From the NCBI GenBank assembly GCA_023078555.1, contig CM041204.1, positions 2,270,985 through 2,334,984 on the forward strand: a DNA stretch of 64,000 nucleotides, in the 5' to 3' direction. The notes below the pieces were generated by a model, which made no database searches, was not told where the DNA came from, and saw only the letters and a list, made by a program, of their open reading frames with translations. The translations under genes and the position numbers were made by a program. Shown here piece after piece: positions 604 through 62,195 of this stretch. How positions within the stretch are numbered: position 1 is the stretch's first letter; each line of letters begins with the position of its first letter. Source of the DNA: Ulva prolifera (lineage: Eukaryota; Chlorophyta; Ulvophyceae; Ulvales; Ulvaceae).

Positions 604-3408
604 TTATCTGGAGAACCTGGGCACAGGTGCAACGCAGCAGCATGTGACAGCATGGAAGCGATGCAGCAGCATGTGGCACACGCCACGTAGCACATGTACG
701 GAGGCAGAGGCGCACTTGAACGCGAGGATCCAGCTGTGCTGCAGCAGCTGCGACACTGTCGGCCGGTGCGCCGGGGCCTTTGTGAGGGCCCACTTGATGA
801 AGTCCGCCGCGGCCGGGGGCAGCCACTGCGGGATCTTTGGCGCCTCGTAGAGCACCGCCCGCACCGACGCCTCCCGCGTGCTCATGCCGAACGGCGGGTA
901 GCCGACGAGCAGCTCAAACGCGAGCACGCCACACGCCCACGCGTCGACCTTGTCGGTGTACACGAGGTACGCGTTGTGCTTGTTCTCTTCTGGGACCCGC
1001 TTGTCCGGGCAAACAAGCACCTCTGCATGTCATGTCTCACTGTGGGACTGTGTTGCGGAGGCAGGAAGGACAGAGTTGGAGGGGCAGGTAGCAGTCAACG
1101 CACGGGCACCGGACACCAAAGCCACTGGCATAGAATTGTGTGCCTCAGCAGCGGGGCTGCAGAGTGTGCAACAAGGACAGGCGCGGCGAGGCGGGCAGCG
1201 CCGCGGAATCAGCGAGCAGCGAAAGAACACAAATCCAGCACAGCGCAGATGGTCTTCAGAGCGTGTTGCACACGAGCGAAGTGCGCGAGAGAGACAACGG
1301 ATGTACGGGTCAGGGCGTACTACTGAACCATGACCAGATGTGCCATGGTGCAGAGGGTGTGCATGTCAACATGTGTGTGGCAAGCCCTGCTGATCATGCT
1401 GTGTGCATACTAGGCATGGCTGGCTGGCTGGGTGCTGCGCCTCGGAGGGTCAAGGTGTCAACTCATGAGAGTCAGATATATGCTTGTCTACTTGATGAAT
1501 CGTCCTGGACGCAACACCAGCCAGCCATGCGTGCAGTGTGCACACGTGTGGGAGAGCATCACATGCCGACCTACCACTGCGCCGACGCCTCGGCCGCACC
1601 ACTCACAGCAGAATTACAGTGCCACACACCGCAGCACTGCCAGAGGCACGGCAGCGTTGGATCACTCATATGCCGCTAGCGAGTAAGTGTGGGGTTGACG
1701 GACAGCTCCTGGACGCATGGAGCCAGGCCCGCACAGCGTTTGGATGTGCACTTCCTCTGGCAGCTGAGCGCAGACTACATAGCCTCCTCCACCCCCCAGG
1801 ATGCTGCTGGGGGTTACACGGATGCGGCGTGGGCGGGGGTTGATCGCACCTGGGGACATGTAGTCTAGTGTCCCGAGGCGAGTGACGGGCGCCTCGTGGT
1901 TGGCATCCACCGACAGCCCAAAGTCCGCGATTTTCAGGGTGCCGTCAGTGGAGAACAGCGTGTTCTCGAGCTTGATGTCTCGGTGGATGACGCCGAGGGA
2001 GTGCATGTAGGCTAGGCCCTTCATGAAGGGCGTCATGATGCGGGCGACTGCATCGGCTTCCTTCATGCGGCCCCCCATGTGCCTCAGGAGGTCAAACAGA
2101 TCACCCTTAGCTGCGTACTCGATGACGAGCACCACATGGTCTGCGTCCTCAAAGGCCCCGAACTGCAGACCGGGAAACAGTTGTGGTCTAAAGGAGGGGG
2201 AATTACTGTTCCCTGTTGCAATTGGGTGAGTTCCTTGCATGACTACCATGGCTCTGTGATCCTGAGCTTGTTTAGCTGTGTGTGAGGCTGAACCAAGCTT
2301 ATGGAGAGAGGCGAGCTGCGGATCAGGAAACAGGTATGGGCTGTGTGGGGAGGGGACTCCCTAGGAGACCGTCGGTGGATGTGGTGGGTGGAGACGATCA
2401 GCGTATCAGAAACACACGGATCCTGTTGCAGCAGGAAGACTTTAAGAGGTAACATCATGAAAGCTTGATGAAAAATATATATGTACAAGCAGGTGTACAG
2501 AACAGAGTGCAGATTGTTCATCTGAGTCAGAGGCTGGCTGCAACCAGGCTCAGGAATGGGAGACAGTAAGCTTACAGGGAGCACATCGTGATGACTGTGA
2601 CACTGACATGGCGGTACGCTACCCAAAGAATCTGCAGTTGAGAACCAAAATGTATCAAATCAGTACTGTGGCAAATCAGTACTGTGGCATGGCAAGTGTG
2701 CAGGCAATTGTTGATCAGAGTTGGGCTGGGGGCATCTGTATTGGTCTGTACAGATGCCCCCAGCCTCAAAAGCTCTGGCAGATGGCTGTGCTACTCCCGT
2801 ACATGGACATGGACACGTAGCGTTTCTGGCAGGTACAGGTTATCTAAAGGATCGCCCAGGCGACAGGACAACAGGTGTGTGAGGACGTCACAAGGCAGCC
2901 TCTGGATGGCCTGATCATACAGTTGCCTCAGCAGGACAAGCATGGTAGCAAGTGATGATGACCATGCAAATAAGGGACTCGGACATGTTCAGAGATCCGG
3001 CTGAGAGGCGGAGCAGGACGTCGCAAGCTGCGATATGGCAAAGCATATTGTGAGGCAGTGCGGTAGACAACGGCTTACCAGGGAGATGATGTTTGAATGA
3101 TTGAGCTGCGTATGGATGATGACCTCCCTCTGGACCTGATGCGCATTCAATGGTGTCATCTTAGCCTTGAAATACAACTTCAGGGCTACACATGCGTTGG
3201 TCCTTCTATATATTGCCTGGTACACTGCTGATGCACCACCGACGCCAAGCTTCTTGACAAGGACGAAATCGTTCAAACACCATCCTGAGCCCTTCTGCTG
3301 CAGCTCTTTTGGACAGTAAGGCGATATCGCCAGAGTCTGAGCTGTCTTGCTCATCCTGCAGGCAGACTCCAATGCGTTGCTGCAGGGCTGCAAGCATTTC
3401 ATTGGCAA
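604..3408 (-). CDS. Aurora/CALK-like Ser/Thr protein kinase
   Basis: Three exons, phase-consistent: 3408-3079, 2162-1850 and 1022-604, giving 353 residues. Seen: glycine-rich loop LGVGGASAV at about residues 54-62, VALK lysine at 77, catalytic loop HRDIKLEN at 170-177, DFG at 190-192, SPE in place of APE completed across the second splice, and a VDAWACGVLAFELL helix F followed by GYPPF. The domain runs nearly to the C terminus. The N-terminal lead (CPKELQQKG then WCLNDF) and the RVPEENKHNAY insert after SPE resemble the algal aurora-like CALK kinases, which act in flagellar and cell-cycle signalling; that role here is inference. Donors are gtaagc and gtgcga. A further 3' exon after HSWIL cannot be excluded, because the last 30 or so residues do not look conserved. 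The start at 3408 is the first in-frame ATG; an ATG 18 codons later is also possible. Confidence 0.85.
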
Positions 3409-36335: not shown

Positions 36336-39300
36336 ATGGTGGTCGGACCTGGAGAGGCTGTTAAAGGTGTGTCCTTGGAGTTGGTTGCCGAGTCGCAACA
36401 CCACCTGGCTCACATGCCGAGCGCACGACGTCGTTGTTGTATCTCGCCTACACAGCCCATCTGCGCAGTGAAGCGCTCACATTGATTTGATATCGATGCG
36501 TGTTGATCTGTGAGGCTGGCGTGCAGCGGGCGGATTTCTGACGGGATGGCGGGGCATTGCCATCTTCATATCCATGATCGCTACGGCAGCGGTCCTGGCA
36601 GTCACGGGCATACAAGCCGAGAGAAACACATTTCCCAGGCTATCTGTGGCCGAATCTGAGTTCAACGTCGGTACGCCTCGCTACAGCTCGGGGATGGCAT
36701 GTCAAGCACCGCACCCATGGGCTCCACCACAGCCTCCCAGAGCTACCTTCGAAAGCACACCTTCCCTGGAATAGCCCAGCATCATCTGCAACTTTCTCTC
36801 GAAGCATGCCATCGAACAGCCTCGCCCCCCCCGTGCTGGTCACATGCCGCCCAGGCTCTCTGGCGTTCCCAATCCAGCCAGCGGCAACCCAAAACACTCA
36901 CGCCCGCTGTCCCGCGCGTCCATTGCTCCTGCACCTGTCGTGCGCACAGCACCGCCTGCCTCTCCGATTTGGCCCTTGTAATACACCCGCTGTACACCCC
37001 TGCCGTAAGCATGCACGATTCCATGCAGCAGTGCAGGGTCGCCTGGCACCTTTTGCAGGGCTGCCATCCAGGCGCTCGACCATGAATTCCCCTGCATTGT
37101 TCTATCTAATCAGGCCCGACGACCCGCCACCGCCATGCAGGCGACTACGGCCTCGGGGCTCTCTACGCGCCATGCATCACCAACGGCAGCTTCATCGGCC
37201 AGCAGTGGGTGTACGACATCCCGGTGCCCGGCACGAACCGCTTCGTCGAGACGGTGTCCCTCGGCGACCGCCGCCTGCTCTCCGACCTCACCGACGGCGA
37301 CATCAGCCCGTCAGTGCGCTGGAACAACAACCCCGAGTTTGTGTGCTTCGTCATCTGCCGCCTCGCGCTCGGCGACGACTGCACGTACTTCACATATGAT
37401 GGCCTCGATGCCGACAGGTGCGGATATCCTTGCCCCACGGCAGGCATCTCAACATGTCAATATCTAGATATACCGTACTTAAGCACAAGGATCGCTTAAG
37501 TAACCAGCGTCACATGCGGTCGAGGTGTAAAGTTTTTTTTCTTTATTGGGTCAGTGACCCCAAAAAAGCATGGTTTGATATACCTAGCCAAGTACCAAGA
37601 GAACCCAGCGGTACACGTTACATGTTGAGGCTTTCAATCAAATATGGTATTGATGAATATATTTTATTGTTTTGTACCACCCCTGGTCTCCGACCTCTCG
37701 GCTCCGGGCTCCGGCCGCATGCATGAGTGCTTTGCAGAGACACCTAGCAAGCATGGGAGGGCCGGCGATGCATTGAGGCGACACCATTGTGCTGCAAGCG
37801 TTGTGCGCATGTTTGGGGCCATGCCGCGGAATTTGGCGGGAGCAGTTGCGTTTGCGGCCGCAGGTTTTCTGTGTCTGCCTCGATGTGGCGCGCCGCCGCG
37901 TGCCTATCCTCACTGTGCCCGCATGCATGCAGCTGCCGCTTCGGCGCGCCGGACTTCCCGATGAAGGAGATTCAGCCGAGCGCGCCGGAGGACTTTCTGT
38001 TCGTGTACAACGCGACATGCATGCAGCGGCGCCGCGAGCAGCTCGTGGTGCCGATCGAGGCTCCCGCGACCGACCTCGAGCGCCCCGGCGGCCGCGCGGC
38101 CCTCGGCAGCGTCGCCGAGGCCGAGCGCCTGCAGGAGAGCATCCTCGAGAACGTCCAGTTCATGCGCGGCCAGTGGGCGGGGTTACTGCCGGAGGACTAT
38201 GTGACCCGCGGGGGGTACGCCTGGCGCGAGCCAGGGTTTGTTGTCCTCGGCCAGGGGTGCCCCGCAGAGGATATTGTCGGCAGCTTCGCGACCGGGGGTG
38301 CGCCGTCGCGCATGTTGCGCTGTGCGCGCTGTGTCAGGGTTTCCAGTACCAAGTCCTGTGATGCCGGCAGATTCGGCGATTTTCTTTGCCGTAAGCATGG
38401 TGCGCATGCGTGCAGATCACGTGATTGTGACGATGGCGACTGCGAACCAGGTCGCGGTGATGTCGATGGCGCTCACGTGGTGGAAGGACACGATCGGGCA
38501 GCTGGGGGGGCTCGGGGTTCGGGCGGACCGCGACGAGATCCTGCGGGGGGCGGCCTACCTCATCAGTGCGTGGGATCCGAGCGCCGGGGCGGCCGGCCGC
38601 CTCCTGCTCGGCGTCGGTGACCAGCTCAACATCAACGGCGTCCCGGAGCTCTATTCGGACTTCGGCAGCGCCGTGGACGCCTTGCAGGTGCGCGGCTCTC
38701 ACACCGTCTCTGCAATTGCATCCACGTCGGTGTGTACAGACACGTCTTTGTGCGGTTCCAGCCCTGGGGAAGATGATCGATACGACGACATTCAACAATA
38801 TACACATCTAACCTTCTTCGAAGCTGGGTGAGTCACCTATATTATGTTGCATTGGCTCCATGCGCGGTGGGGACCAACCATGTGCAAGCCACTGTGATAC
38901 AGCAGCCGTGCCCTCCCCCAGCAGGCCTCCTTCCCTGCCTGCCGCCCATGCACTCTATCGTCTGGACCATCGATCTGGGCAGTGAACTCAGGGCCCGTGC
39001 CGCAGTGCAGATCGGGGAGCCGCCGTTTGAGAACGGCCAGGCCTCGCCGGTGCCGCCTGACTGCACGTACACGAAGAACGATCGGCCGGAGCCCGCGACG
39101 GCGGCGCAGGCGGCGGCGGCGCTCGCGCTCGGCAGCGTCGCCGTCGCTGAGCTGTCCGCCGGGGGCCCCGTCACCCCGGCCACGATGCAGGAGGTTGCCA
39201 TGGAGCTCTACGAGTCGTCTATCGTGGACATGCCGATCGACGGGCAGGCGCAGTTCCCTGAGTTCAACGCCTCGACGGAGTACGGGGTACGCACCGCTGG

Positions 39301-39449
39301 ATCTGCAGCGCCGGCGTGGATGCCGTGGTGGGACATCTGAGCGATTTCCTGGGGGTTTTACCCTGAATATAAAGTATGCTCGTGTCTGAGTGAATCCCGA
39401 CGCCTTTGCGGGGCGTTTACCCTAGGGGCACACATGCAAACCCGACACG

Positions 39450-39482
<33 letters not shown>

Positions 39483-42423
39483 TGGCGTGTCAACCTGCGG
39501 CGCGCAGACTGGTTGTCGAACAGCCCAGGGCATTGCCGCACACACTGGGCGGGACCGGTACCTGGTGGACCGAGCCGCTCCGCAAACTGCCGCTTCATCT
39601 TGTTAAACGTGCCTGACGGCAGGCGGCGCCGTGCAGGCATCTCAGCTGTACCCCCTCGACGAAGGCAGCCCCCTCCAAGTGCGCAGCCACCAGCTCTTCG
39701 CCGCGTGCGCCCTCTTCCAGGCGACCGGCGAGCTGCGGTACTGGAACGACACCCTCACCCTATACGACCTCTACTTCGACGCCCTCGACCAAGACCTCCT
39801 CGACTCCCCCCTGTACAACCCGTCCGCCAACTACCGCAACCCCCAGTGGTACGCGCTGCTGTGCATGGCCCAGAGCGCCCCGGACGCGTCCAACATCGCC
39901 GACGACCCGCTGCTCGCGGTGCCGGAGCACGTGGACCCCTCGGCGGAGTCCGTCGGCAACGAGACGGCGGCCGGGTGGGGCAGGGGGCAGCGCGCACAGT
40001 ACCGGCAGTACCTCGCCGCGCAGCTGCCGGAGACGGGCACACGCATGGAGGTCATGCGCCAGCTCAGCAACAACTTTGTGTATCCGTGGCTCACGCTGCA
40101 GAGCCAGGGCTCCGGCGGCGCCTTTGCGCAGAACGACCGGCTTCGGTGCGGGCTCGTGCTGTGCTGTGCTGCGCTGATCACGTCACAGATTTGCCTAGGT
40201 GGCGCGGGGGAACACAGCTCCCCACACCTGCGCTTTCACAAAAGGGGAAACAGATTGGCTACGCAATACACTATGCAGCCAGTTGCTGCCGGGGAGGGCA
40301 TGGCGTGGGTGCTGTGCCGCCTGCAGGTCCGTTCCTCCCGGCAGGTTTGTGAGCTGCGGTGGTGTGCAGGGCGTCGACGCCGGACAGCTTCCACTACTTC
40401 GACCTGAACGGCGACGACGAGGACCCGGTGGGCTCGGCGACGGTCATCCGGGACGCCGCCAACGCGGCGCTCGTCAGCCTGATCTGGGCAGACCTGCCCG
40501 GGGTCAACGAGGAGCAGGCCTTTCAGGCGCGCTGCATGGCCAAGCAGCAGGTGGACTTTGTGCTCGGCGAGAACTCCGCCGAGGTGTCGCTTCAGGGCGA
40601 GTTCGGGTGCGCCTCCCACAGGCCGCAGCCACTTTGAGAACATCCAGTGATGTGGCCGCTGTACCCTGACTGCACCCTTACGCATCGTGAGGTTCCATGG
40701 TCCAGTGGTACAGCGGTTAGATCAACGGACGTTCACACACCACCGTATCGGGGCAGTCGCCTCACGACTAGAGCCACATGATGCCCGGATTAAATGCCAT
40801 GGATGTCAAATGGGGTATGGACGATTGTTGTTGAGGAATTCTCATGGCATCGCGAAGGCCCGACGGCACGCTGGCCTCTCCTCGATGGGGCCTTGCGATG
40901 CGACACGCCTCCATTAGCGCGGCTCCAGATGCCGGCATCGCATGCTGGCCGCCTCATGCATGTGTGTCTGTGCATAACCGAACAGCATCAACTTGTGAAC
41001 TTTCTGCCTCAGTACACAACCCACCGCCGCCCGTTGCAGGGAGGGCGCCTCTGTCCGGAACTTCTGGCACAAGGACTCCGCCTGCCCGGATGAGGACACC
41101 CGCGCGGAGCTGTTCTCGCCGGTGGGAGCGCCGATCGAAGGCTTCAACGAGACCGCGCCGAACCCTGGCCCCCGCGTCGAGTTCTCCACCCGCCGCTGCG
41201 ACTTCATGACCATGTTCGGCAACCAGACGGACATCTCGTTCAACAAGGACCTGGTCGAGTTCTTCGGGAACAACGCTCCGGAGGTGCTCGACCCGGTGCT
41301 GCCCAACTTCAACCTCCTGACCGGCGCCGTCGCGGCGACGTTTGACGTGACGGGGGAGAACGAGGGGCTGATCCTGAACCAGCGCGCGCTGTGCAAGTCC
41401 GGAGACACGGACGTCACGACGTGCCCTCGCGCAAACCAGCAGAACCCTAACCCCATGACACAGGTGTGCCGTCGCCGCCTCGCAGCCGATTTGTGCGTGC
41501 TCCATCTGCTATGTTGCAGCTGGCAGACATGATGATTGAGGTATCAACTGTATCATTGCTCCTGAACAGTTCGTCTCCAAACGCGGCCAGTTGCCCCAGA
41601 GAGGGCTGCCCACAAGGCCATGGGACCCGCGCGGGTGCCATGCATTGGATATGCGGAGCAGCAAAGGTGACGCTGTGCTCTCGGCGGCGTGGGCGCGTGG
41701 GACCTGCTCCCGCGGAGCTGTGCATGCCGGCATGGCCGGGCCAATGTGCAGCTTGGTCTCACGAGACATGGGTCAGCACAGGTGCATGTTGAATGCACTG
41801 CGATTTACGCTGACTCAGCGCCGAAGTCCAAATTACCCACGGATTATGTGCAGCGCCACGCCACGATACCTGCCCATTTGCTGCGGCCGATCGTCCGGTC
41901 GAGAGCACACGTCTCGTGCTGCATGCATGTGGACCAGTACCGGGACGCGTTCCAGAATTCCAATCGCTGCCTGCGAGAGAGTAGACCTCAGTATTCGGAA
42001 CTGCTCTCAGTGATCAGGCCTGATGGGCCGCCAATAGTAGAGCCCCACGGGCTGTGTTCCAGAGCTGCGGTGCATCTGCAGGTGAGCATCGACACGAACG
42101 CGGCGTTCTTCGGCGCCGTCACCGGCGTTGCGGCACTGCCTGCAGCCTTCTGGGACCGCCTCGACGACTGCCCAGCGCCGCAGGACCGCGTCGCCGCAGC
42201 ACAGCGCGTGCGGGACGCGGAGATCGAGGCGCAGAAGGATGCCGTCGATACCGACTTCATCGAGGAGGCCACTGCGGACCCTAATCTCACGGTGCAGGGT
42301 CCGGACAACGGCCTGCGGGTGCCGCGGCGGGTCGGCACCCCCGCGCCGGTGGATGATGAGGACTTGGTGGAGGAGCCGGCGCCGGGGCGCGACGCGGAGG
42401 CGGAGGATGAGGGCCGGCGGTAG
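36336..42423 (+). CDS. Membrane-anchored GH9 (KORRIGAN-like), altered catalytic motifs
   Basis: Ten exons, frame kept across all junctions: 36336-36366, 36527-36670, 37141-37417, 37933-38297, 38416-38687, 39011-39286, 39637-40145, 40370-40606, 41040-41463, 42082-42423 (958 residues). A short cytosolic tail precedes a membrane anchor at about 21-39 (IAIFISMIATAAVLAVTGI), the type II topology of KORRIGAN endoglucanases. GH9 landmarks: QWAGLLP, DHVIVTMATANQVAVMSMAL, LLGVGDQ, AQAAAALALGSVAVAEL, RSHQLFAACALFQATGELRYW, DAANAAL, AKQQVDFVLGENSAEVS and SIDTNAAFFGAV. Catalytic signatures differ: DAGD reads ATGD (270-273), HHR reads WHK (713-715), and the acid motif NE reads TQ (844-845). About 150 residues of unrecognised lumenal sequence precede the catalytic fold, and the tail is acidic. 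It may bind glucan or assist the adjacent synthase rather than hydrolyse; this is inference. Confidence 0.85.
39450..39482 (+). repeat. Poly-C tract flanked by inverted 8-mers
   Basis: A run of 33 C in the intron between exons 6 and 7 of the GH9 gene. It is bordered by GACACGCC and GGCGTGTC, which are reverse complements, so the tract would form the loop of a hairpin. Confidence 0.85.
40691..40760 (+). other. tRNA-Gln-like fragment in GH9 intron
   Basis: GGTTCCATGGTCCAGTGGT matches the 5' part of eukaryotic tRNA-Gln including an A-box-like TGGTCCAGTGG. The rest does not fold into a full cloverleaf and has no good B box. It is best read as a tRNA-derived fragment or SINE head, not a working tRNA gene. 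Confidence 0.35.
41925..42030 (+). mobile_element. MITE-like element, copy D (reverse orientation)
   Basis: The reverse complement of this stretch reads GATCACTGAGAGCAGTTCCG, then AATACTGAGGTCTA and GGCAGC, aligning with copy C. It lies in the last intron of the GH9 gene. Borders are approximate and the copy is diverged. Confidence 0.5.
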
Positions 42424-43642: not shown

Positions 43643-46600
43643 GCCTTGTCGGAGCACAGCGTCACCAGTTGCCGCTCGTCCAAAGGACATAGCACACGCC
43701 TGATACACTATTTAAAGCCTACAGCTGGTCCCAAAGACTTTGCTTCACCGGAGGGACCGTTCAAGCCTGACAAGGACGCTTTGACTGAATTTCTGCATGA
43801 ACGGTACATCCAGGTCAAACACAACATCTGGGCTCTTGCGACTGGGCGGGAATGGGGCCTCGCAACCGGACCAGGAATCGGCACATTCCTTATGGCTACT
43901 GCCTGGTGAGGCCTACAGGCAATCTGCGCTCGCGTGATCCGGCCAGAGCACTGCCAGTCCACCATTCGATGCAAGTGCAGGACTTGTCAGCTATTCCTTG
44001 TATTGACGTTGACCGCTGTCCCTTTCTGGATCATGATCACGACGACCAGTGGCTTTTTTGGGGAGTACTCGGTCGCCCTGGGTAACGACCAGCGAGGCGT
44101 CCCATTCATGCAGCCCTACTCTTTGAACAACAAACATGCGGAACCTTCATTCCTTCCAGCATTGAATTTCGCAAGCATACTGGAGGATAAGGGTGGCAAT
44201 GACCTGACATCCCGCATGAAGTTCGAAGGCACAGAGTACATGGTTGGGACAGACCTGGGCAGAGACTACTTTCTCTTTAGTGAGCCCTTTTCTGCCTTGC
44301 TGTGTGCATGATGTTGCCATCATTCCTTCACTCCACAAGGAACATTTTGCACACCCACATTTGCCACAAGCAGCTCGGTTTTGCCATTCCCATCTCAACA
44401 GAGGGGCATGCCGTCGATGTTGCTCTGAATGTCTCAACTTGATTGATCATCGGCGCCACATCCAACCACAATCTCACTCTCTCACTGGTGTGCCACCTGC
44501 TCGTCGTATGTGCCAGGAAACATGCATGCATGTGAAACAGGCGACACGAAACACTCCGCTTTCCATTGGCCACATTGAGCCCTGCTGGATGATCTGGCCC
44601 TACTCCATGCTCCCTTGACATTTGGCCGATGTCAAGTTAGTCCTGGTGTATGCCACCGCGGTAGGTCTCTCTCAGGTGCACCACACATACCAGCGCAGCC
44701 AGCATCATTGTGTTTGCAATGGTTATTACACAGCAAGCACATTCGGCTGTCGCGTTGCCTACAGATGTATCATCCTCAGCGCTACGGACACATGATTTTG
44801 TTTGCCATCTTGCTCTGATGCCATTGTGGTGGTGCAGTCGTTGGGCTTTTCGATGTCTCGGCCGTGCTCTTCCTGCTCTTCTCACGGCGTCAGTTCCGGC
44901 TGGCTGTGGAGAAGTACGAGCTCGAGTACGATGCATCAGTGCTGGAGATTGCAGACTACACGGTCCTCGTGACAGGCTTGCCCAAGGACATCAGCCCCAG
45001 TGAAGCCGACACCGCCTTACTGGAGTGCGTCCCTGCTGAACTGGCTACTGCAAAACACTGCAGAGAGACCTGGTTGCATGGCTTTGCTGTGGCGCTCCAT
45101 TGCAGGCCATCTCGCTCGCGGGAGTACAGAATGCAGCATGCAGTTGGCGTGCACTGCGAGGCACTGTACTGTCTCTGCCCTGCCTTGTGGCGCCTACAGT
45201 CGTCCGTCTAGGCTGCAGCATTGTTTGGCATATGCGGCGCGACCACCCCGTACTTCACATCTCCAGCTGTTGAAAAGCCAAAACTATCAGCTGTGGGCTT
45301 TGTGCTGTGGCCAACAGCGCACCGTCGAGTGCTCATGGGTGCCCGGTCCAACACCATTTGTACCTCCTGCGATACACCACTGTTGCCAGAAGAACATTGG
45401 ACATCATAGCACCGGCAAGTTCTGTATGTTTGTTGCAGGTACTTCAACAACCGGTATGCTGCATATCAGGACGAAACGGGCTCGCCTGCTGTAGCTGTGT
45501 GCCCCTCACACTTTCCGACCAATGCAGCGCTGTGTACACACACGCGTTCTGCATATTATACGCTCTCCACACTGTAAGATCAATCGTCCAGAATAATGTC
45601 CCCAATCCCGGACTGCTTTGCTGCAGGAGGTGTATCCAATCACTACGGAAGGGCGGCTAGTGGAGCTGCTCAAGAAGCGCCGCAAGCTGGAGGTCCGGGT
45701 GGTGTGCTCCCACCCACGTCATCAGCACGGCTGTATTGGCCCACAGCCCTGGCGCCTGGCTACTGCACTATTCCCCACAGCCTCTTGACCTGCGGGGAAC
45801 ACAACTCACGGCTCCATGGGCACAGCGGGAACAGCTTGTGGCACTCTGTGTCAACGTTCAGCCCCTCTATGGCAACACGGGACATGGCTCTGTTGTAGTG
45901 GCCATACCACCTATCCCTAGCGTGTTGTAGCGTTCTAGTTGTGCTGCAGTAATGCCATGATTTGCGACACCCTCCGGCAACACCGAACATATTCGTGGCG
46001 CTGGGTGTCGCATCAGGGCCACACAGCCAACACAACATCGCACTCATCCGGCCCCACATTGCATGCAAACGATGAAGCGCCAGGCGCATGTGGGGGCTGG
46101 CATGCCCCGTGGCGCCGAGGCGGTGTAAGCCGGCCGTGAGCTGCCCGATCTCATCGCAGCGCGCACGCATGCAGAGGCGGCTGCTGGCGCAGCAGGCGAC
46201 GACCGGGAAGAACCTGCAGAGGCAGATCATGAAAGCCAAGGACCAGCACGAGGAGATGGAGGCGCAGGTCGCGGCGGCAGCGACAGACGCGGACATCCAC
46301 CAGCTGCGCGGCGCGTTCATCGTCTTCAACGAGGCCCGCCTCGCCGACGACGCCATCTCCTCCGCCCCCCGCGGTACAGCCCTTGACCAACACGTGCCAT
46401 TGCCTCCTGCTGCAAATGTCCATGGAGGCGCCTGTGTTTCAGTCACACAATCCCCATACTTCGGGCCATGCCGATTGGGCGCTTTGGCCGCTGCTGCGTG
46501 GTCGATGGTACATCAAAGAGAGCTCGATATCCTGCAGTGCCGTGCCGCTAGTTGCGTGTGGGGCAGCAATCAGATGTAAGCACATACGAAGAGGTGCTCA

Positions 46601-49600
46601 CGGTGCATTGTCGCCCGCCTGGTGCTGCAGTCCGGGCTTCCACTCGTCGCCATACTTGGCCGAGCCCCCTCGAGCTCAGCAGGACGTGCCTGTGGCCTGG
46701 AGGTATAGCGTGCACGCATGCATGCATGCATGTGCGTGACGGCCCGGGGGTGCATGTAGGCTGGCTGCAGCGGCTATTTGTGCCGAAGGGCAGCCGCCTG
46801 CTGGGCACGCATGTGCTGCGCGTCGAGCCCGCGACGGCCCCGAGCAACTACATCTACGAGAACCTCGCGATCTCCCCGCTGTCGCGCACGGCGCGCGTCG
46901 CGCTCTCCAACGCCATCGTCTCTGCGCTCCTCATCCTCGCCCTTGTGGTGGTCATCCTCCTCAAGTCCTACCAGAAGACCCTCCTCGTGCGCCCGCCCCC
47001 CTCTGGGTGCCACCTAGGCTTTCCAGACTGCTGGGGGCGCTACTTATCTTGCTCTTGAATGTGTTTTTAGTCATAATTTGTGACCGATGTCTCTGTCAAG
47101 CTCAGTTGGCCAGATTTGGGGCAGACGTCCTGGCTGGACTGCATGCGCCAGAGGATACTCATGTCCTCCATGCGCTGCACTATTAAAGCACCTCTTATGT
47201 CGAATGCAATCCGTTCGCTGCCCGACCCACTAGAGAGTATGTATATGTGTATGCATGGACACATAGCCACATCCATTGGGCCATTGACAACTCCAAAGAC
47301 GGGCACCGAGGAGTGGTAGGTGGGGGTAGCTTCCACAGCCACCCAGTACCCGGCTGCAAGCGCTGTGACTGCGAGGGGGCTGGGGTCTAGCGCATGCTGA
47401 GGTGGACGTCTGCGCGGGTGGTGTATGTGCACACTCGGGCCGCAGGCGTGCCGGCCGCTCTCGTATGCTACTGCACCATCTCGCCTGAGCCCGTTCTCGT
47501 GGTCTTTGTCATGAGGCATGCCTTGCGAGCCTCCAATGTTTCAGCATAATTGTCGTCCGATTGCAGCCCAGCCGAGCGTGTCCGGCGTGCAGGCGCAGCT
47601 CAATATCGACGGGGAGGTCATGCGCCGCACCGTCGCCGAACGCGCCCCGGATGTGCTGCCGCGCGCCGCGGCCGCGCGCTCGGCCGGCGAGGCGTGGGAC
47701 GCCGCGATGGTCGCCGACTGCCTCTCCACGCTGCCGACGTGCCCCGACACGGCGCTGAACCCCTTCCCTCGCGGCGTCAACGTCACGATGGAGTACGGCC
47801 GCTACATCTACGTCGAGCCGGAGGCGCTGGCGTCGTACTACACGAACAACTTCCTGAAGGAGATGGTGGAGTGCGCGGCGGACGAGGACGATTGCAGGGA
47901 CGACACGCCCCCGCAGGTCCAGGTGTGTGTGCTGCAGTCTCTTGTGCTCGTTGTGGCGCAAGAGTGATCGGGGTTGAGCAAATCGAGAGCGAGAGTCTCT
48001 CTTGAAACAGCCACCATGCACACAGCCACGCTGTCGCAGCATCACACGCACGCGAGCACAGGCTATGCCTGTTCTGAGCCGGTGGGGGTGTTGAGACCTG
48101 TCCAACATGTACGGTGTGGCATTGGTTGTTGTATTGTATCTGATGTAGCAGTCATGGCACGTCACGAGAGCGACCCAATGGTGACGGTGCGCCAGCCTGT
48201 CCATGAGTACCCACTAGTAAGTAGAGCCCTGCACTGGGGCATCAGTGCTTGGAACGCATTCGCCAATGTTGCTGCGGGCACATGCGCTGGGGCATGCAGC
48301 ACAATATGGGGGTCTAACGAGGCGCGGGCGCCGCAGGTTGCTTGCCTGACGTGCTACTGCCAGGGCATCCACGATGCGGAGGCCCGTGGCGTGCTGCCGT
48401 TCAACTTTTTCCACGCGACCGTCGCCAAGGCGCAGTGCAAGCCGTTCCTCGCGTTTGACGCCGCCGGCGCGGGCATCAACGCCGCGATCGCCGTCCTCCT
48501 CGCAGCCGTGAACGTGGTCCTCGGGATGGTGATCCGCGCGCTCACGCTCTTTGAGCGCCACCGCAGCCACACGGAGGAGCACGCGAGCCTGTGCTGGAAG
48601 ACAACGATCGCGCAGTTCCTGAACACCAGCATCACGCCGCTCGTGGCCTCTGCGGAGATCCGCTGGCTCGCGGTCGTGTTCGGGGGCATCGTGTTCGAGA
48701 GCGGCTTCCCGGACTTCACGACCAACTGGTGCGCCCCGCGCACTGCATGTAAGTAGAGTAGTAATTCTGAAGATTCTTGGCTTGCATGCTTGTACAACTG
48801 AGTGTGGGGCCCGGCACAGGTCATCGATCACAGGAGTGGGCGTCAGGGTTCTGCACGTTCGGGCCCTGCTTCATGACACTGTAATACATGCCACAGTATG
48901 GATGGCTGTGTACATACACATGGATGGCTGTGTACACAGGCATACGTGTATACCATATGTGTACAGTATACATGTATGACTGTGTATGTACACGCATAGG
49001 CATGCATGCCCGACCTGCAGGGGTCTGCGTCACACCCATACACCATGCCGTATGCCATACTGGTCAGTGCGCCTGAGCACACCATCTTGGATGTTGGCAC
49101 AAGTGGCGCCACAGCTGCTGGCGGCGCAGTGCACCAGCGGTACAGGTCAGCGCGTAGGGGCTGCACGCAGTCCGCAGGGCCATGCATGTTGATCAGGCGT
49201 GGCACTGGGACAGCAGCCAGGCCGCCGCGACAGCGTGGCCAGCGCCGGAGCATGCTGCAGGTACGCGACGGCGGGCACGCAGGTCGTGGTGATCCTCCTC
49301 ACGACGTCGATGACTCAGCGCGGCGTCGGGTGGGTGACGGGCTGGCTGCTGCCAGCGGTGCAGCGGCGCGTCGGGCGGCCGTACACGCAGGAGCAGCTGC
49401 ACGAGATGCACATGAACGCCGGCTTCCACCTCGGCAACGCCTTTGCGGAGGTCTCGCTCGTCACCATGCAGGTGCGCGGCCCTCTCCTCCACCTCCCTTC
49501 CCGCGCCGTTCCCGTGCCTGCGTGGGTGCCTCCCGATTGCAATTGGCAGGCACATCGGAAGGTTTTTTTAGGTGCTGCTCGGGGCTTGCGCGGTGGACAA

Positions 49601-52600
49601 ACTGCAGCTGGAACGCAGTTTGACAGACCGCACGCACGCCACGGAATCGCTCCGGATTCGCTCACCCGGTATCAGACAGGCGGGGCCGCATGCTGCGCCT
49701 GAACAGCTTGCATTGATTGATGTGTGCAGCGGTGGAGCCGGGGTAGCTCACTGAGGCGCCCTTGCCGCCACGGTCCACGCGCCGCAGAGCGTGGAAGCTG
49801 GCACCCATGCTGCCACCCTCACCCAGGCTGCCTCCTCGCAGCCTCAGTGCCTCATGAGACCGCAGAGTGGTGCCACTGCACTGCGGTGTTGTGTCGTCGC
49901 CCCCGATCATATAGACCAATTCCAAATATTTAGGCCCAGTTTTCATATGGCAGCCCTGGAAAAGCTGCAAGGCGACCCAGCGTGTGCTGCGCTGCAGGCG
50001 CTGACGTTCGGCGCGGGCATCCCCGTGCTCTACGTGATCTCGGCCGCCGCGATGCTCATCAACACCGTGGACACCAAGGTCAAGCTGCGCTACGTCTGGC
50101 CGCTGCCCCGCCGCTTCGGCACGAACTGCACGCGCATGTACCTCACGATCGTCAAGGCCATGGCCTACCTCCACACCTTCTTCGCCGTCTGGATGCTCAG
50201 CTTCTACCGCATGCACGGCCAGATCGTCAGTGCGCCCCCCGCCGCATGCTGGAGTCAGAGGCCACAGGTCGCATGCTGTATGTATGCATGATTGCTGTGC
50301 TGTGCTGTGACTCTTCGGTTCCCATGACACCTGCCGGACGGTGCTCCCCCCGCTTGCCACTGCGCGCTGTGTGCTGTGCTGCGCTGTGACTCCAAATTTC
50401 CGATGACGACCGATTGTAAATGCCGCCCCCACTGCCTGCTCATGTTGCCGGCAGCACATGCTGGTCAGCGGGCATGGTAGATCTTTCGAGCGCCTATGAT
50501 GGCTCAGCATCTGTGCATGCTGCCTTGGGTGCGGCTGTAATTTCATCATGCATGCATAAATCGTATGCGTTTCGGAACTGGTGGATATCCGATTGATACA
50601 GATACATGAACAGGCTTGTGTATGTACATCCAAATGTACATACACATGAGGCAGCAGGGATTGCGCCCCGGCTGAACAAACTAAACACCGGTCGTGGTTG
50701 TGAACGTGACCGCCCGCAGCGAATTTTGCACCGCAGAGTCAAGTAGCACTGACCGAGTATCGCTCCGCTGCTGAGTGAACACCGGCGGGTATTGCTGACG
50801 CCCAGCGCTGCGCTGCAGGCCTGGAGGTCGCGGAGAAGGCGGCCCTCCGCAGCGGCGGTGACGGCACGAGCGACTCCTTCGTCACCTGGTTCCGGTGCGC
50901 CACCCCCCCGGGTCCCCTAACCCCTAGCTCTGGCCCGTAGTTCTGCTTGTGTATGGCAGTTTTGCCGCTGCAGTGCATGCTACACCTGCGCTTGATGGCT
51001 AGTTGCCACAGCACGATCGACCGTGGGCGAGGTGCGTAGCGCACAAGTACAGACCGGCCACACACAGCAGCGGCGGGGTTCAGATGGGGGTGGGCGTGTG
51101 GGTGTGGGCGTGTGTGTGGCTGTGTGGCTGTGTCCGGCGCGAGTGCTGCCGTTGCGTGGGTGTTTTGGTGTGAGCTTTGTGTGGCTTGCTGCGTGGTGTG
51201 CGGTTCCCCTGGTTCTTGCTTGCGGTGCTACCTGCCTCGCTTGCTTTATCCTTGTAACACACACAGCAGCGGCGCACCCTGCCGCACCTGCTCCTCATCG
51301 AGCCCGCTGTGCACACCACTGCAGCCGCATGGTGGCCAATGAGCTGCGTGCATCCGCTCGCCTCTGCAGCTGGCAGTTGTCATCCGATTGCAGAGAGCTC
51401 CTCACTCCGGCTGCTAGGTACATACGCCCCTCCCGGCCCGACCTCACTGCTCTGCCCCCGCCTGCCCCTCACACAGTGATGGCAACCCGGGGCCCCGGGT
51501 CACCCCACGGCAGAGCCCGCACGCTGAGTCATGTGCGGCTGTGCAGGTACGAGCGCATCTTCCAGGTCGCGACGTGGGGCCACTGCGCGCTGCTGCTGGC
51601 CTTCCTGCTGCGCGAGGCCGTGCCCGCCGCCATCGGCGCCGCCGTGAAGCTCCTAAAGGTCGCCGCCGGCCTGCGCCCGACGTCCCGCGAGCTCCACGTC
51701 CTGGACGAGCAGATCCCCTTCATGGACGCCCTCGAGGGCGGCACGATGCGGGTGCGCGCTTTGCGCACGTGGCGACATGCATGGCATGCATGCGTAGTTG
51801 GTCACTGTGGCCCCAGGGACAATGCAGCGGTGTGGGGTATCTTTTTTAGATCAACGTGACGTAACTAACTATATAATCATTTAAAACACGCTAAATATGA
51901 TCGCGAAACCTTTTTAGGAAGGGGGCCTGCAAAATAACTGCTTGGATCAGGTGCCTCCATGGATGTGCAGTTCCCCGGTCGGCAGTGCCCCTGTGTAGCT
52001 CCTCTGCAAGTTTAACAAACAGGGCATGTGCGTGTTTGTAAAGGCTTCAGCAGGCAGGCGTGTTGGAAAACGGTGTCGCCCCAGGATGTCTGCTGGGTCT
52101 GTATGAAAGCGCAGCGCAACCAAAATGGTCTGTGCTGCACGCCTGCTGCACGCAGGCGACTCACCTGGCGGGTCGGACCACCGGGTCGCGCGTGTGCCTG
52201 GGAAACCCCAACAAAGCATGCGGGCGGCTGCACAGCGGCCACTGGTACCTCCTGCAGCACCCCGGTTATGTTTTTATTTTCTCACGCTATCACAAGGCAG
52301 GCCACGCACACGCCACTCGCAGGCAGCATGTGCCGCATGTGCAGGGCATGACGAGCTACAACGTCGCGCACGTCGAGAAGGCTGTCCTCTTTGACGACGC
52401 CGACCTCGACCCCGGCCTGCGCGCTGCCGCATGCTCCCTCAACGACGGCCTCGCGCCCTTCCCCGCCGCCGCCGCTGCCCTCGTCGGTGCGCCCATGCCC
52501 CCCACGCAGGCCACCATCGCCCTCAAGAGCCAGCTTGATGGCGAGGAGGAGGAGGCTGCCTCAGAGGCGGGCGACGGCAGCAGCGGCGGCGGCGGCGGCG

Positions 52601-52779
52601 CGCGGGTGCCGCCCGCGGTCGATGTGGACGAGTTTGCAGAGGCCACAGTGATCGCGGCCGGCGGCGGCGCGGCGCTGGAGAGCGCTGGGTGGGAGGATCA
52701 GGGTGGCAGCGGTGGGGGTGGGGGGGACGGGCGGGGAGTCCGCGATGCGGCGAGCCTGACGAGCTCGGAGGACGACTGA
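43643..52779 (+). CDS. TMEM63/OSCA/CSC1-family channel-like membrane protein, 5' end unresolved
   Basis: Fourteen exons keep frame: 43643-43905, 43981-44279, 44838-45024, 45439-45490, 45627-45692, 46175-46373, 46760-46986, 47572-47922, 48337-48728, 49261-49471, 49998-50229, 50819-50894, 51547-51751, 52345-52779 (1064 residues plus a missing N terminus). Seen: first span completed across a splice (GIGTFLMATAWTCQLFLVLT), a second span before SRRQF, then the cytosolic domain start ADYTVLVTGLPKDIS. Family hallmarks follow: EPATAPSNYIYENL, a span, a cysteine-rich lumenal loop, RALTLFERHRSHTEEHASL with AQFLNTSITPL, then TFGAGIPVLYVISA and VKLRYVWPLPRR. The tail is acidic and Gly-rich. Members are mechano- or osmo-sensitive cation channels; function here is inference. 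The exon 8 acceptor is uncertain (47545 is an alternative). Exon 12 codes for only 25 residues. Confidence 0.8.
48899..48942 (+). repeat. 22-bp tandem duplication in TMEM63-like intron
   Basis: Two adjacent 22-bp units beginning ATGGATGGCTGTGTACA differ only in their last few bases. They are followed by GTATAC/GTACAC dyads in the intron between exons 9 and 10. Confidence 0.8.
49880..49985 (+). mobile_element. MITE-like element, copy E, next to an exon
   Basis: The core AATTCCAAATATTTAGGCCC, GGCAGCCCTG and GGCGACCCAGCG match the family. The copy ends about a dozen bases before the acceptor of TMEM63-like exon 11 (49998). Its own sequence is open in the exon's frame from an ATG at 49950, so automatic callers may extend the exon into it. 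Confidence 0.7.
51218..51262 (-). repeat. Short dispersed repeat, copy 2
   Basis: Reverse-complement match to 8963-9010 (TTACAAGGATAAAGCAAGCG and onward), in the intron between exons 12 and 13 of the TMEM63-like gene. Confidence 0.5.
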
Positions 52780-53810
52780 GGCGGGGAGCCGGGCTGGACA
52801 CGCAGGATTTAAAAATGGAGCTACACAGTGTGCCCGAGGTTGGCGTCAGATTGAACGGCCAAGGTCTTCATCTACCTTCTGTGTTGGAGGCTGGGGAGAA
52901 TCGATTTGGTGATTCGCTGTTGGCCGTCACGATGAGTTGATATGCTGGCAGGACACACGGTGCAGGACAAAGGTGGACGTGGACGGGCGGCTTCGGTGCA
53001 CAACATGCATGGGCCTCCGCATGATATCGTTTGAGGTGGACTTGTTCTGCCGAAGGCTGCTACGGCGGCGTGGCAGACAGGTTATCTTGGCGCCTGGCTT
53101 CTGGATGGAAGTTGGTGATTGGGCGGACGCTGTTGTGGACGGAAATATGGATGGACGCCTCGACAGCAAGTGTAGGGTTCCAGCGATGTGATGAAGAGCA
53201 CCTGGACTCACAAGGGATAGGCAGGGCTGGCACGGCCGTGTTGGCTGGCAGTCGGTGATAGACACATGCAGAGTCCACAAGATTGTGTTGGTGCTGTCAA
53301 CTGTGCTGCGAAGCCTGCCCCGGCCACTTTGCATGATGGCTGTGGAGGCGGTGGGTCACGGCAAGTCGCTGACCACTTGCGAGGAGTATTCTGTCAGGCT
53401 GTCTCGTAACACATGTACAGTTTGGACATGAGCGTGGCATTCATGGAATTTTGCAAGCACGACAGCGGAAAGTACATGTCTCCACAACGCTTTACAATAT
53501 TGGAAATCTCAACTCCAGGGGGTCTCAGGTTTGCAAAAAGCAGCATCGCAGATCAGCGAATGAATTCTCAGGACCCTTTCTAAGCTCAGGTCGTAGGTAC
53601 CAGGTCCTGCTGAACACGCACAGCTAGCAGAACAACCCTACCACGTCACTCCTAATCATACGCTCATGGCCTGCACTACAACTCGATACACTATTGTGCG
53701 CAAATGTGCACACTGTTCTGTACGGCCAGGCTGCCAGTGTTAAAAGAGGCCGCTCGTTCTGCTATACACACACACTTTGACCATGACCGATTTCTGGCGG
53801 GCAGCAGACA
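52780..53810. other. Convergent intergenic region
   Basis: About 1 kb between the 3' ends of the plus-strand TMEM63-like gene and the minus-strand dehydrogenase. No coding segment is supported; both 3' untranslated regions are expected here. Confidence 0.5.
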
Positions 53811-56377: not shown

Positions 56378-56411
56378 CGCCTAGTTGCCGTAGACGCCTA
56401 GTTGCCGTAGA
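56378..56411. repeat. Perfect 17-bp tandem duplication over the Lhca3 stop
   Basis: CGCCTAGTTGCCGTAGA occurs twice back to back. The second copy contains the stop codon (56398-56400) and the last codons of the Lhca3-like gene; the first lies just downstream of it on the minus strand, repeating the last residues and the stop outside the reading frame used. Confidence 0.95.
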
Positions 56412-57849
56412 TCTTGCCGAAGTTGGACAGCAGGTTCTCGGAGAAGGGGGAGCTGAGGTGGTCAGTGAGGTTCTGCACCGGGCCCTTGCCGGTGATGACA
56501 GCTTGGGCGCCGAAGCCGAAGCACGCGATCATTGCGAGCCGCCCGTTCTTAATCTCCTTCGTCCTCATCGTCTTCTGAGCCTCGCCGTCCTTGGCCATGC
56601 CCATGAAGTTGAACACCGGGCCACCTGCACCCACGCCACAATCGCCGAGGTGGGCGCGCAATACACAGATACGTTCTGAATTTTTTTTACAACATCATCA
56701 CAAGCATCACAAGGGGCATGCAAGTCCGCTATCTTACAAGAGCGACCTGCATCAAGCTAGCAGCACAGCAAGGGCAGTGCGACCAGGCTCCCTTGGGGCT
56801 GCCACTAGAGGAGATGGAAGGGGCAACGCCAACATCAAAGCAGCACGCGGGCAGTAATTTGAGGAGGGGATGTCCATGTTCAAGATTGCACAGCAGCCAC
56901 ACCGGCGCACAGGCAGAAGGGCGTTTCGGTGCCCACCAAAACCTACCAACACATCGCGCAGCTATCCAAAATGCGCCGCAATGCATGGGTCAGATTGTGA
57001 GAGACACAGGCAGGCAATGTGGAGGAGGCGGGCGGCACGCACCGGGGTACGCAGGCTCACCGGAGCCCTTGAAGAAGTTCTCCAGGCCGAGGAAGTACTG
57101 CTTGCCCATGGAGCCCGGGTTGTTGTAGTCTTGCCAGCGGCGGAGCTCCGCGAACTGCATCAGCACGACCTCGATCCAGAACAGCGCCCAGGGGTCGATG
57201 CCGTACACGCCCTCGGGGGTGCCCGCCGGAGGGAATACTCCTGACTTGAACCAGAGGACGCGGGTGGGCTCGGGAATGACGCCCATGGCGCCGAGCGCCT
57301 CGGGGCCGACACAGCCGGCCGCGCCGAGCATCGCCCAGCGGCCGTTGATGATCTCGGCATACCGCAGCCACTCGGGGTCGATGAAGCCACCGGCGCCCTC
57401 GGGGTCGGAGAGGCCGAGGGGGTCGAAGCCGAAGTCGCCGGCGTATGTGCCGTCGAGGTAGCCGAGGGACTGCTCGGATGGGAAGAAGAGGGAGTCGCCG
57501 GAGCGGTCAACCTGCGAACGCGACCGCGGGGGTGAGGCAAGCATGACGGCTGATGAATGACGGCTGAACATTGAAGACAGTAACTGACAGAAGTGAGAGG
57601 CTGGTTGGAGGGAAAAAGGGCAGGGCTGTGCTAGAAACTTCGTCGAGATGGCGAGGCGCTGCGAGAACACCGTAGGTTGACCGACGCAGGCAAGCGTCAA
57701 TTTGAGAAATGTTATCATAGACTGATTGCAAGGCTGCTGCTGCTGGCACGGGCTGCTAGCTGGCTGCCGCTGAGTGCTACCGAAGAGGAGCGAACCTTGG
57801 ACACGGATGTCTGCTCGGCCCGCGCAAGCACGCGCCGGCCGGTGACGGC
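56398..57849 (-). CDS. LHCI antenna protein, Lhca3-like, first exon not found
   Basis: Supported exons: 57849-57796, 57511-57043 and 56624-56398, in frame across both junctions. The product binds chlorophyll a/b in the photosystem I antenna belt in the thylakoid. The first supported exon gives the end of a transit peptide ([18 protein letters not shown]). The second has [20 protein letters not shown], helix 1 [27 protein letters not shown] and the Lhca3-type [19 protein letters not shown]. The third has helix 3 [11 protein letters not shown] and ends GKIYGN. Helix 1 has Asn where most LHC proteins have His as chlorophyll ligand. The exon with the start ATG lies upstream in 57850-60500 and ends in phase 0, but I could not identify it. 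Confidence 0.92.
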
Positions 57850-60561: not shown

Positions 60562-62195
60562 CTACTTGCCAATGACGTTGGGCAGGTTGAGCACGGAGGT
60601 GGTGATGTTGGCTCCGAAGGGGTTGGCGACGTGCGAGAAGAGGCCCTCGATTGGGCCCTCGCGGGTGACGAGAGCTTGGACGGCGAATCCGACGAAGGCG
60701 ACCATCGCGAGGCGGCCGTTCTTGACCTCCTTGACTTGCATCTCGGCGGAGTTCATGCCCACGGGGTCGAAGGGGAACTGGTTGATCAGGCCCGACTGCA
60801 CAGCATACTCCTTACTGTCAGGTGCCTGGTAGGTCAGGGAAACATCCACATTGCAGCCAGTTTGCTGACTCCAATAACAGCACAGGGAGAGTAGTGAGTT
60901 CATGTATGAATATCATGCAGACAAGCCACTTCATCTCGATGGACCTGCTTTGGCCAACTGACTATCATGTTGTGCCGACTTGGAGATAAAGTACAGAGTG
61001 GTACAGCAATTGGTTCTTAGGGATGATGTGAGCAAGTTGTGGGTCGTTATTGGCTGTGATTGGAATGCATCAGGAGACTGCTGGGCCACAGAGACGAGGG
61101 GCAACAGGCAGAGCTGGGCAGAGAGGCACGCACCGAGCCGGTGTTCTTGAAGCCCTGGTAGCGCTTCGTCTCGAGGAAGCCGAGGGTGGCGAACTCGATG
61201 GCGAGCAGGGGCAGGAAGTCGATGTCGTACTCCTTGCCACCAGCCTCGAACCACTTGGGGGAGACACCGAGGAGCTCCTGGCCCATGATGCCAGCAACAC
61301 CCATCATCGCCCATCGGCCGTTGGTCTTCTCAGCCTCGGCGTACCTAGAGAGCGATAATAGACTGTCATAATCAGCGAGAGATGGTCTCCAGAGTGGCTG
61401 TGAGAGCTGGATGGTGGCAGGAGCTGTGGGGACAACCACCGACTATCGACCTGACCAGGATGCACCGCATACGAGCAGGGCATTGCCCAGAATCAGGTAA
61501 GTATGGAGATATGCTGCTTCTGCATAGCTACATCCCACAAACAGCGGAAGTTTGCGCTGACAAGGTCGTCCGTCAGGACGGCACGCCGATTCCGATGCAT
61601 CGCGGTGTGCTGCCAAACGGCATTTCAGTGGACCGGACAACGCTGTATTGCACACTGCAATGAATTGAAGCACGTGACGGTGTGCTGCTAGAGCAAGGTG
61701 AACAAGATTTATCTTCCGCGAATTAGGCAGCATCGCGAATCTACGCTGGACCGGGGCCACCGCTTCACCGACGTGCTAGGCAGTACTCACTCTGAGCATG
61801 GCAAATTCTCAAGAATTCAACGTCGCGAAAACCCCTAGAGTCCGAAGCCACCGCGTCCAGGCTCGAGGCATGGCCCCACCCCTCGAATCGTCGCCATGCA
61901 GGAACCAAAAACCTGCGTGGCGCTCCCAGGACAGCCCAGACATATCAATTGTGTACATCAACTGGAGATGCTGGGAAGAGCCGCACCACTTGAGGCGCTC
62001 TGCGCCCTGTGTGCCGAGCCCGAGAGGGTCAAAGCCGAAGTCACCTGGCATGGAGCCGTCCAGGTGGGGAGGAGGAGTCATTCCTGGAAGCCATGTGCTG
62101 CGATCAGCGCACACCTTCACTGAGCGAGAAGCAGTGGGCGCAGCGCGCACGGCGGGCGCCTTGAAAGCCATCACGGTGCAAGCCATTGTATTCAA
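60562..62195 (-). CDS. LHCI-type chlorophyll a/b-binding protein (Lhca)
   Basis: Three exons: 62195-61987, 61344-61134 and 60795-60562, 217 residues. It starts [19 protein letters not shown], a typical Ala/Arg/Ser chloroplast transit peptide; the ATG at 62186 is an equally good start. Mature-region landmarks: [20 protein letters not shown], then [19 protein letters not shown] completed across splice 1, [36 protein letters not shown], then [18 protein letters not shown] (helix 3) and a C terminus of [14 protein letters not shown]. The first-helix ligand is Asn78 in EKTNGR. It is a photosystem I antenna belt subunit; which Lhca number it corresponds to cannot be settled by eye. It lies in the same orientation as the Lhca3-like gene, which makes an Lhca pair. 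Confidence 0.93.

Follow-up and report, generated by a model that had tools for sequence, protein, structure and literature searches.

The GH9-like gene and its catalytic sites

The window analysed here, a 64,000-nt stretch of the Ulva prolifera genome (C9:2270985-2334984), contains a GH9-like gene on the forward strand that lies head to head with a GT2 synthase-like gene. The GH9-like gene (36336-42423) comprises 10 exons and nine introns and encodes 958 codons free of stops, with splice sites chosen by hand. Its introns follow one splice dialect, all nine running GT...AG with a TGCAG acceptor and a GTGCGN, GTACGC or GTGTGN donor. Intron 6 also carries a run of 33 C (39450-39482). Three of the junctions (38297/38416, 40606/41040 and 41463/42082) and the residue numbers of the catalytic signatures (ATGD 270-273, WHK 713-715, TQ 844-845) had been given in a preliminary description of the locus; the junctions agree with our rebuilt model and the residue numbers match it exactly. 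Using two annelid GH9 queries, a spliced protein-to-DNA aligner recovered 38297/38416, 40606/41040 and the acceptors at 39011 and 42082 exactly, with its remaining exon edges differing from the hand-built model. This support is not fully independent, given that the aligner's codon table came from this very gene model; run with no codon table and a low intron cost, it produced a poor model of the gene.

The spliced protein belongs to the GH9 family, as residues 224-736 match positions 8-406 of 444 of the Pfam profile PF00759 (68.2 bits, cut-off 27.7, E=1.1e-18), and hhalign against a set of seven GH9s, the window protein excluded, gave a probability of 97.9. Taken singly, none of its exons is among the 36 PF00759 matches in the genome. 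Hydropathy predicts one transmembrane helix, N-terminal as in KORRIGAN-type proteins, and the GH9 domain would lie outside the membrane. The protein holds 8 N-glycosylation sequons, compared to 4.1 +/- 1.9 in 2000 shuffles (4.4% of shuffles reach 8).

All three catalytic signatures are altered. The canonical DAGD reads ATGD, in which the first Asp is Ala and the base Asp273 is kept, leaving the Asp pair of active GH9s incomplete. The HHR of active enzymes reads WHK, with the first His and the Arg changed and the second His kept, and the NE containing the acid Glu reads TQ, with both residues changed (Glu to Gln). While hhalign pairs ATGD with DAGD and WHK with HHR, its alignment ends before the acid site, which we located with a block scan of 14 columns from the seven GH9s. 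The best place was 841-854 (NPMTQVSIDTNAAF; z 5.4, next 3.5), and 841 remained best (5.1 vs 3.5) when one member of the set, C3a (the second GH9 of the C3 fusion described below), was removed; a MAFFT alignment also places the acid site at TQ 844-845. A GALVGGP-like stretch at 794-811, weakly the best place for that block (z 3.5, next 3.1), lies between 785 and 841 and fits an acid site at 841. Glu785 (APEVLD), a candidate prompted by the hhalign end point, was discarded, since the score at 841-854 is much higher and position 781 does not appear in the top four. For the base site the scan gave a near tie between 269 (z 4.5) and 502 (z 4.4); the latter position breaks the order of the sites and disagrees with hhalign.

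Alternative splicing that restores DAGD or NE, which the preliminary description had named as evidence that would overturn its claim, found no support in the DNA. Exact D-A-G-D codons are absent from 37933-38700, where other frames contain D-E-G-D (37960) and D-D-G-D (38429) outside any GH9 context, and 41200-42423 contains neither N/S/T-E-V/A/Q/P nor E-V-x-x-D codons. The sole H-H-R in 40300-41300, at 40738, falls within intron 8. The inverting GH9 mechanism requires the acid Glu. Given an auxiliary Asp replaced by Ala and an acid Glu replaced by Gln, the window protein should be unable to perform inverting GH9 hydrolysis. The altered residues, the intact frame and the constraint described below together make a strong case from sequence that it is a GH9 pseudoenzyme, bearing out the preliminary description on this point.

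GT2-GH9 fusions elsewhere in the genome

We compared the window with the whole genome (88.9 Mb, 44 contigs), and our conclusions rest on this one genome. PF00759 matches 36 pieces of it. Of 14 stretches fetched, 13 gave GH9 models holding 14 domains, making 15 with the window domain; six places of a C5/C7 group stand outside this set. Both Asp residues and the Glu are all kept in three of the 15 domains (C1:7603k, C4:881k and C3:5245k), with one further domain ambiguous.

Five GH9 domains directly follow a GT2 synthase (C8, C4, C3, C1a and C1b; Table 1), and not one of them keeps the catalytic residues. In all five, neither Asp position of DAGD holds an Asp (the base position is Glu in C8, C1a and C1b and Pro in the other two), the acid Glu is absent, and the second His is kept. 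At the acid site only the absence of Glu is safe, because the spliced aligner and MAFFT disagree there by one or two columns, and the proposal that a sequon Thr replaces the acid Glu was dropped. At the NE signature, all five first GH9 domains carry N-x-T-[AV]-V-S-L, which may be an N-glycosylation site.

The junction lies within a single open frame in three of the fusions (C8, C1a and C1b; ...WVLYPRE...SLDFLYAQRGG and similar), and at an intron in C4 and C3. For the junction frames of C1a and C1b the Pfam GH9 match exceeds the cut-off; the C8 junction frame reaches only E=0.11, and the remainder of that gene is over the cut-off. No GT2 family matches any of these three junction frames, because they hold the transmembrane part of the synthase. 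A segment of the C4 synthase half matches PF03552 (cellulose synthase, E=1e-7); the GT2 identity of the C3, C1a and C1b halves rests on alignment to C8 rather than on Pfam. The GT2 motifs read LDQE, TAD, AEN and HYRHS in C1a and LDEE, STG, DEN and HYRRS in C1b, with a single Asp left in some, so that every one of the four synthase motifs and the three GH9 signatures is altered in these two genes, whose modelled frames are open and whose GH9 is well conserved from one to the other. The C4 and C3 fusions each precede a second GH9. It has splice sites that could be used at the same position in both genes and lacks an evident start codon with its own transmembrane helix, so both genes probably read GT2-GH9-GH9. 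In C4 this second domain is complete (C4b, DAGD/HHR/SE), whereas in C3 each of its three sites is altered (C3a at C3:5368k, DAGG/AHR/SR). Predicted transmembrane topology is 2+5 in C8 and C1a, which puts the GH9 outside if the N-terminus is inside.

The five fused GH9 domains form one clade (ultrafast bootstrap, UFBoot, 100), and therefore one old, retained fusion is likely. C3a groups with the catalytically complete C4b (UFBoot 100), and a tree with the window domain as sister to C3a was rejected by the approximately unbiased (AU) test (4e-5), so the losses in C3a and in the window domain look separate; placing the window domain with C3a plus C4b gave AU 0.026 and 0.175 in the Shimodaira-Hasegawa test.

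A second kind of altered GH9, with the base Asp changed and the acid Glu kept, occurs in the C5/C7 group. GH9 matches fall at nine places in this group, seven of them spread over 77 kb (C5:9568-9645k) and the other two on C7:3348-3358k. Two modelled C5 genes read EAGN/HSR/SE, and the C7 GH9 reads HSR/SE with its first site ambiguous. The C1:5813k GH9 reads EAGN/HHR/TE. On C10 the first two signatures are missing and the third is ambiguous.

The GT2 gene beside the window GH9 has all the motifs of a GT2 synthase (IGDDG 279, DCDH 357, AEDID 477, QRSRW 515) and matches PF13632 (E=1.4e-16) and PF13641 (E=1.6e-8). PF03552 did not match it at E<=0.01, nor did any PDB chain at E<=0.001. In its model the aligner inserted 8 codons near residue 781, and the first exon is the least certain. 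The protein stops 29 residues beyond its last predicted transmembrane helix, where the fused synthases continue into GH9. The two window genes are separate and divergent, and the single polypeptide of the tunicate type is found instead in the five paralogs elsewhere. Among other GT2 loci, C1:5407396-5408265 and C9:1596008-1596877 show equal scores, identities and spacing, possibly from a recent duplication.

Table 1. Coordinates of the window genes and of the fused GT2-GH9 genes
Feature	Position	Strand or direction	Basis or remark
GT2 synthase-like gene, 9 exons, 844 amino acids	27662..34668	-	hand-guided model, divergent from GH9 gene
Head-to-head space between start codons of GT2 and GH9 genes, 1.67 kb	34669..36335		gene models
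Exon 1 of GH9-like gene, start ATG	36336..36366	+	rebuilt gene model
Exon 2, sole transmembrane helix, residues 21-39 IAIFISMIATAAVLAVTGI	36527..36670	+	gene model, hydropathy
Exon 3, between transmembrane helix and GH9, no Pfam match	37141..37417	+	gene model, Pfam
Exon 4, GH9 domain start; A-T-G of ATGD (canonical DAGD)	37933..38297	+	gene model, Pfam, hhalign
Exon 5, completes codon of Asp273 (kept base) of ATGD	38416..38687	+	gene model, spliced aligner
Exon 6, GH9 domain	39011..39286	+	gene model, spliced aligner
Exon 7, GH9 domain	39637..40145	+	gene model, spliced aligner
Exon 8, GH9 domain	40370..40606	+	gene model, spliced aligner
Exon 9, WHK 713-715 (canonical HHR); T-Q pair 844-845 at exon end	41040..41463	+	gene model, hhalign, block scan
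Exon 10, VSIDTNAAFFG (canonical VAxDYNAGF), acidic tail, stop codon	42082..42423	+	gene model, block scan
C8 fusion	C8:2206585 to about 2210571	upward	GT2 Pfam families; GT2 motifs intact
C4 fusion, probable GT2-GH9-GH9	C4:872075-884399		GT2 motifs intact
C3 fusion, probable GT2-GH9-GH9	C3:5378457-5366182	downward	GT2 motifs intact
C1a fusion	C1:4902603-4897838	downward	all four GT2 motifs altered
C1b fusion	C1:3040284-3034623	downward	all four GT2 motifs altered

The rest of the window holds a protein kinase segment (718-2168, reverse strand; PF00069, E=3e-24), a series of membrane-protein-like coding segments (46100-52800, forward strand) with one sub-threshold Anoctamin match (20.3 bits, cut-off 28), and two light-harvesting genes on the reverse strand. 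The first of these (56401-57508) encodes a chlorophyll-binding protein (PF00504, E=2.6e-28) that we take to resemble plant Lhca3; the second (60574-61292) was named by eye.

Constraint and the proposed role of the window protein

Apart from its own gene, the window protein used as a genome-wide query hit a group of pieces on C7 and, weakly (E=1e-4), the GH9 at C1:5.81 Mb. The C7 pieces make up a decayed partial copy (C7:6219398-6220891) that contains stops and matches window positions 39612-40043, 41031-41489 and 41729-42173 at 81, 77 and 67% DNA identity, intron sequence included, the first two of these stretches being mainly exonic. Intron 9 is 64% identical to the copy and the first 91 bases of exon 10 are 81% identical; no counterpart of exon 8 was found there by the genome protein search. 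A processed retrocopy is ruled out because intron sequence is retained. At the WHK position the copy reads stop-H-K, and therefore at least the Arg-to-Lys change is older than the duplication; its acid site also has no Glu. The ratio of nonsynonymous to synonymous substitution rates (dN/dS) between the window gene and the copy is 0.58 over 259 codons (bootstrap 95% 0.40-0.85; of 2000 resamples, 0.45% gave 1 or more), suggesting that the catalytically dead protein has probably been under constraint since the duplication, although some of this constraint may be older than the copy's decay.

The fusions offer a second view of constraint. We computed omega by the Nei-Gojobori method, and the values are relative rather than absolute, because synonymous divergence between the paralog pairs is high (proportion of synonymous differences 0.43-0.60). 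Between C1a and C1b, the two fusions altered in both halves, the GH9 half is 68% identical in amino acids with an omega of 0.37 (0.27-0.47), compared to 51% and 0.65 (0.54-0.80) for the GT2 half. The pair with intact GT2 motifs, C3 and C4, shows the reverse, with 69% and 0.30 (0.24-0.38) for GT2, 53.5% and 0.61 (0.48-0.75) for the first GH9, and 46% and 0.62 for the second. By these estimates it is the GH9 half that selection holds better between the two doubly altered fusions, which suggests a selected, non-catalytic role for the GH9.

We propose that the window GH9 is probably a non-catalytic, membrane-anchored subunit of a GT2 beta-glucan (probably cellulose) synthase complex, a partner role that we infer from fusion, adjacency and constraint. 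The pseudoenzyme would sit extracellularly, anchored by its one N-terminal transmembrane helix, with the adjacent divergent synthase as its most likely partner. Near the chain exit, it may link subunits or steer the chain, aiding the assembly, spacing or guidance of freshly extruded glucan. This partnership, the extracellular location, the identity of the product and the mode of help are all put forward conditionally. That the protein partners the neighbouring synthase was already suggested in the preliminary description, and the suggestion is now stronger than that description could know, because five genes fuse a catalytically dead GH9 to a GT2; this support is indirect, given that the window gene is adjacent and unfused. 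Its other suggestion, glucan binding, draws no support from the residues, with three of eight invariant aromatic positions kept. The loss of cleft aromatics from the window protein argues for a putative role in assembly rather than in cleft binding.

Several observations weigh against a role in the synthase complex. Five catalytically complete GH9s, two of them annelid and three from this genome, share 59 invariant columns; the window protein keeps 29 of these, which with the aromatic losses speaks against a working glucan cleft, and its identity to the 14 other modelled GH9s is 17-25%. In the best tree its neighbours are the C5/C7 group (UFBoot 84, with long branches) and not the fused clade, although a grouping with that clade was not rejected (AU p=0.22), so membership is neither shown nor refuted. 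Among 10 unfused GT2 loci, a GH9 match lies nearby only at the window locus, in a PF00759 scan that would miss a GH9 this divergent because it missed the window GH9 itself. The mixed pair C8 and C1a shows no pattern of the C1a-C1b kind (GH9 42%, omega 0.59; GT2 40%, 0.49), the omega values carry the relative reading given above, and the compared GT2 half takes in about 70 residues of the GH9 start, blurring the contrast. Counts of transmembrane helices from a simple hydropathy cut also vary among the fusions (C8 7, C1a 7, C4 6, C3 5, C1b 5).

The tree position and the nine unfused GT2 loci with no nearby GH9 match would suit a dead GH9 kept for a job unrelated to the synthase, such as a wall lectin, surface receptor or wall-remodelling scaffold, its neighbourhood being due to chance. 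Other altered-site GH9s (the EAGN/HSR/SE genes of the C5/C7 group, and C10) likewise have no GT2 seen beside them. We nevertheless regard this as unlikely, given the head-to-head arrangement with 1.67 kb between starts, the five genes in which a GH9 stripped of its catalytic residues is fused to GT2, and the unrejected grouping with the fused clade. That the gene is decaying, its protein drifting after the loss of catalysis, is very improbable; its high divergence and the existence of a decayed duplicate on C7 would fit, but the 958 codons stay open over ten exons with splice sites intact, the bootstrap interval of dN/dS lies below 1, and the window branch itself would be nearer 0.2 if the C7 copy drifted freely. 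Least probable is a divergent glycosidase or transglycosylase using Asp273 plus other residues, for although the protein retains Asp273 and the second of the HHR histidines, the acid Glu on which the inverting mechanism depends is Gln, no E-V codons occur in 41200-42423, and five of eight invariant aromatics are changed.

Beyond the proposed subunit role of the window protein, it is possible, and we offer this tentatively, that the genome has built a non-catalytic pseudoenzyme layer of the glucan synthase complex. This layer would comprise the fusions, whose first GH9 is dead in every case seen, two of them being doubly dead structural subunits, and the window GH9 as a detachable version. In a parallel to tunicate CesA-GH6, a domain that once cut chains would have become one that handles them or serves assembly.

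Comparison with known systems

It has long been puzzling that cellulose synthesis should require a cellulase, as seen with KORRIGAN, bacterial GH8 and tunicate GH6. KORRIGAN1 has a single N-terminal transmembrane helix, as is predicted for the window protein, and is likewise a membrane GH9 tied to a synthase. This plant GH9A1 is an integral membrane GH9 in the cellulose synthase complex whose activity is required (PMC8774047). The window protein differs in having lost its catalytic residues, as far as its sequence tells, and with them presumably the activity expected of a GH9A enzyme. The GH8 of the bacterial cellulose synthase cluster, BcsZ, is of another family and is encoded in operons, in contrast to the head-to-head genes here. 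It is described as a beta-glucanase of the synthase complex and an endoglucanase (PMC5407803). AtMAN2 and AtMAN5, mannanases with an N-terminal transmembrane helix, are needed for glucomannan synthesis and resemble the window protein in that anchor; their catalytic-residue mutants fail to complement, i.e., they work by catalysis, in contrast to what we propose here (PMC13181414).

The closest known case is tunicate CesA, in which a GT2 synthase carries a GH6 domain that has no catalytic Asp (PMC7464555). Two Phallusia CesA proteins have seven transmembrane helices, and a separate membrane-anchored GH6 exists (PMC10986139). The fusions of this genome share with it a GT2 synthase joined to a hydrolase devoid of a catalytic residue, and C8 and C1a share the seven predicted helices. 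They differ in using GH9 rather than GH6 and in numbering five genes, two with altered GT2 motifs and two that seem to carry a second GH9; the window gene differs further in being unfused. Literature searches, which excluded subscription papers, found no report of a GH9-synthase fusion, a negative that is no proof of absence from print; the genome-wide pattern of GT2-GH9 fusions with dead GH9 domains is a new result. With a dead hydrolase fused to or kept beside a synthase, and better conserved than the synthase half in the doubly dead fusions, structural and catalytic roles can be told apart in a testable way, and the tunicate solution seems to have been reached a second time via a different hydrolase family.
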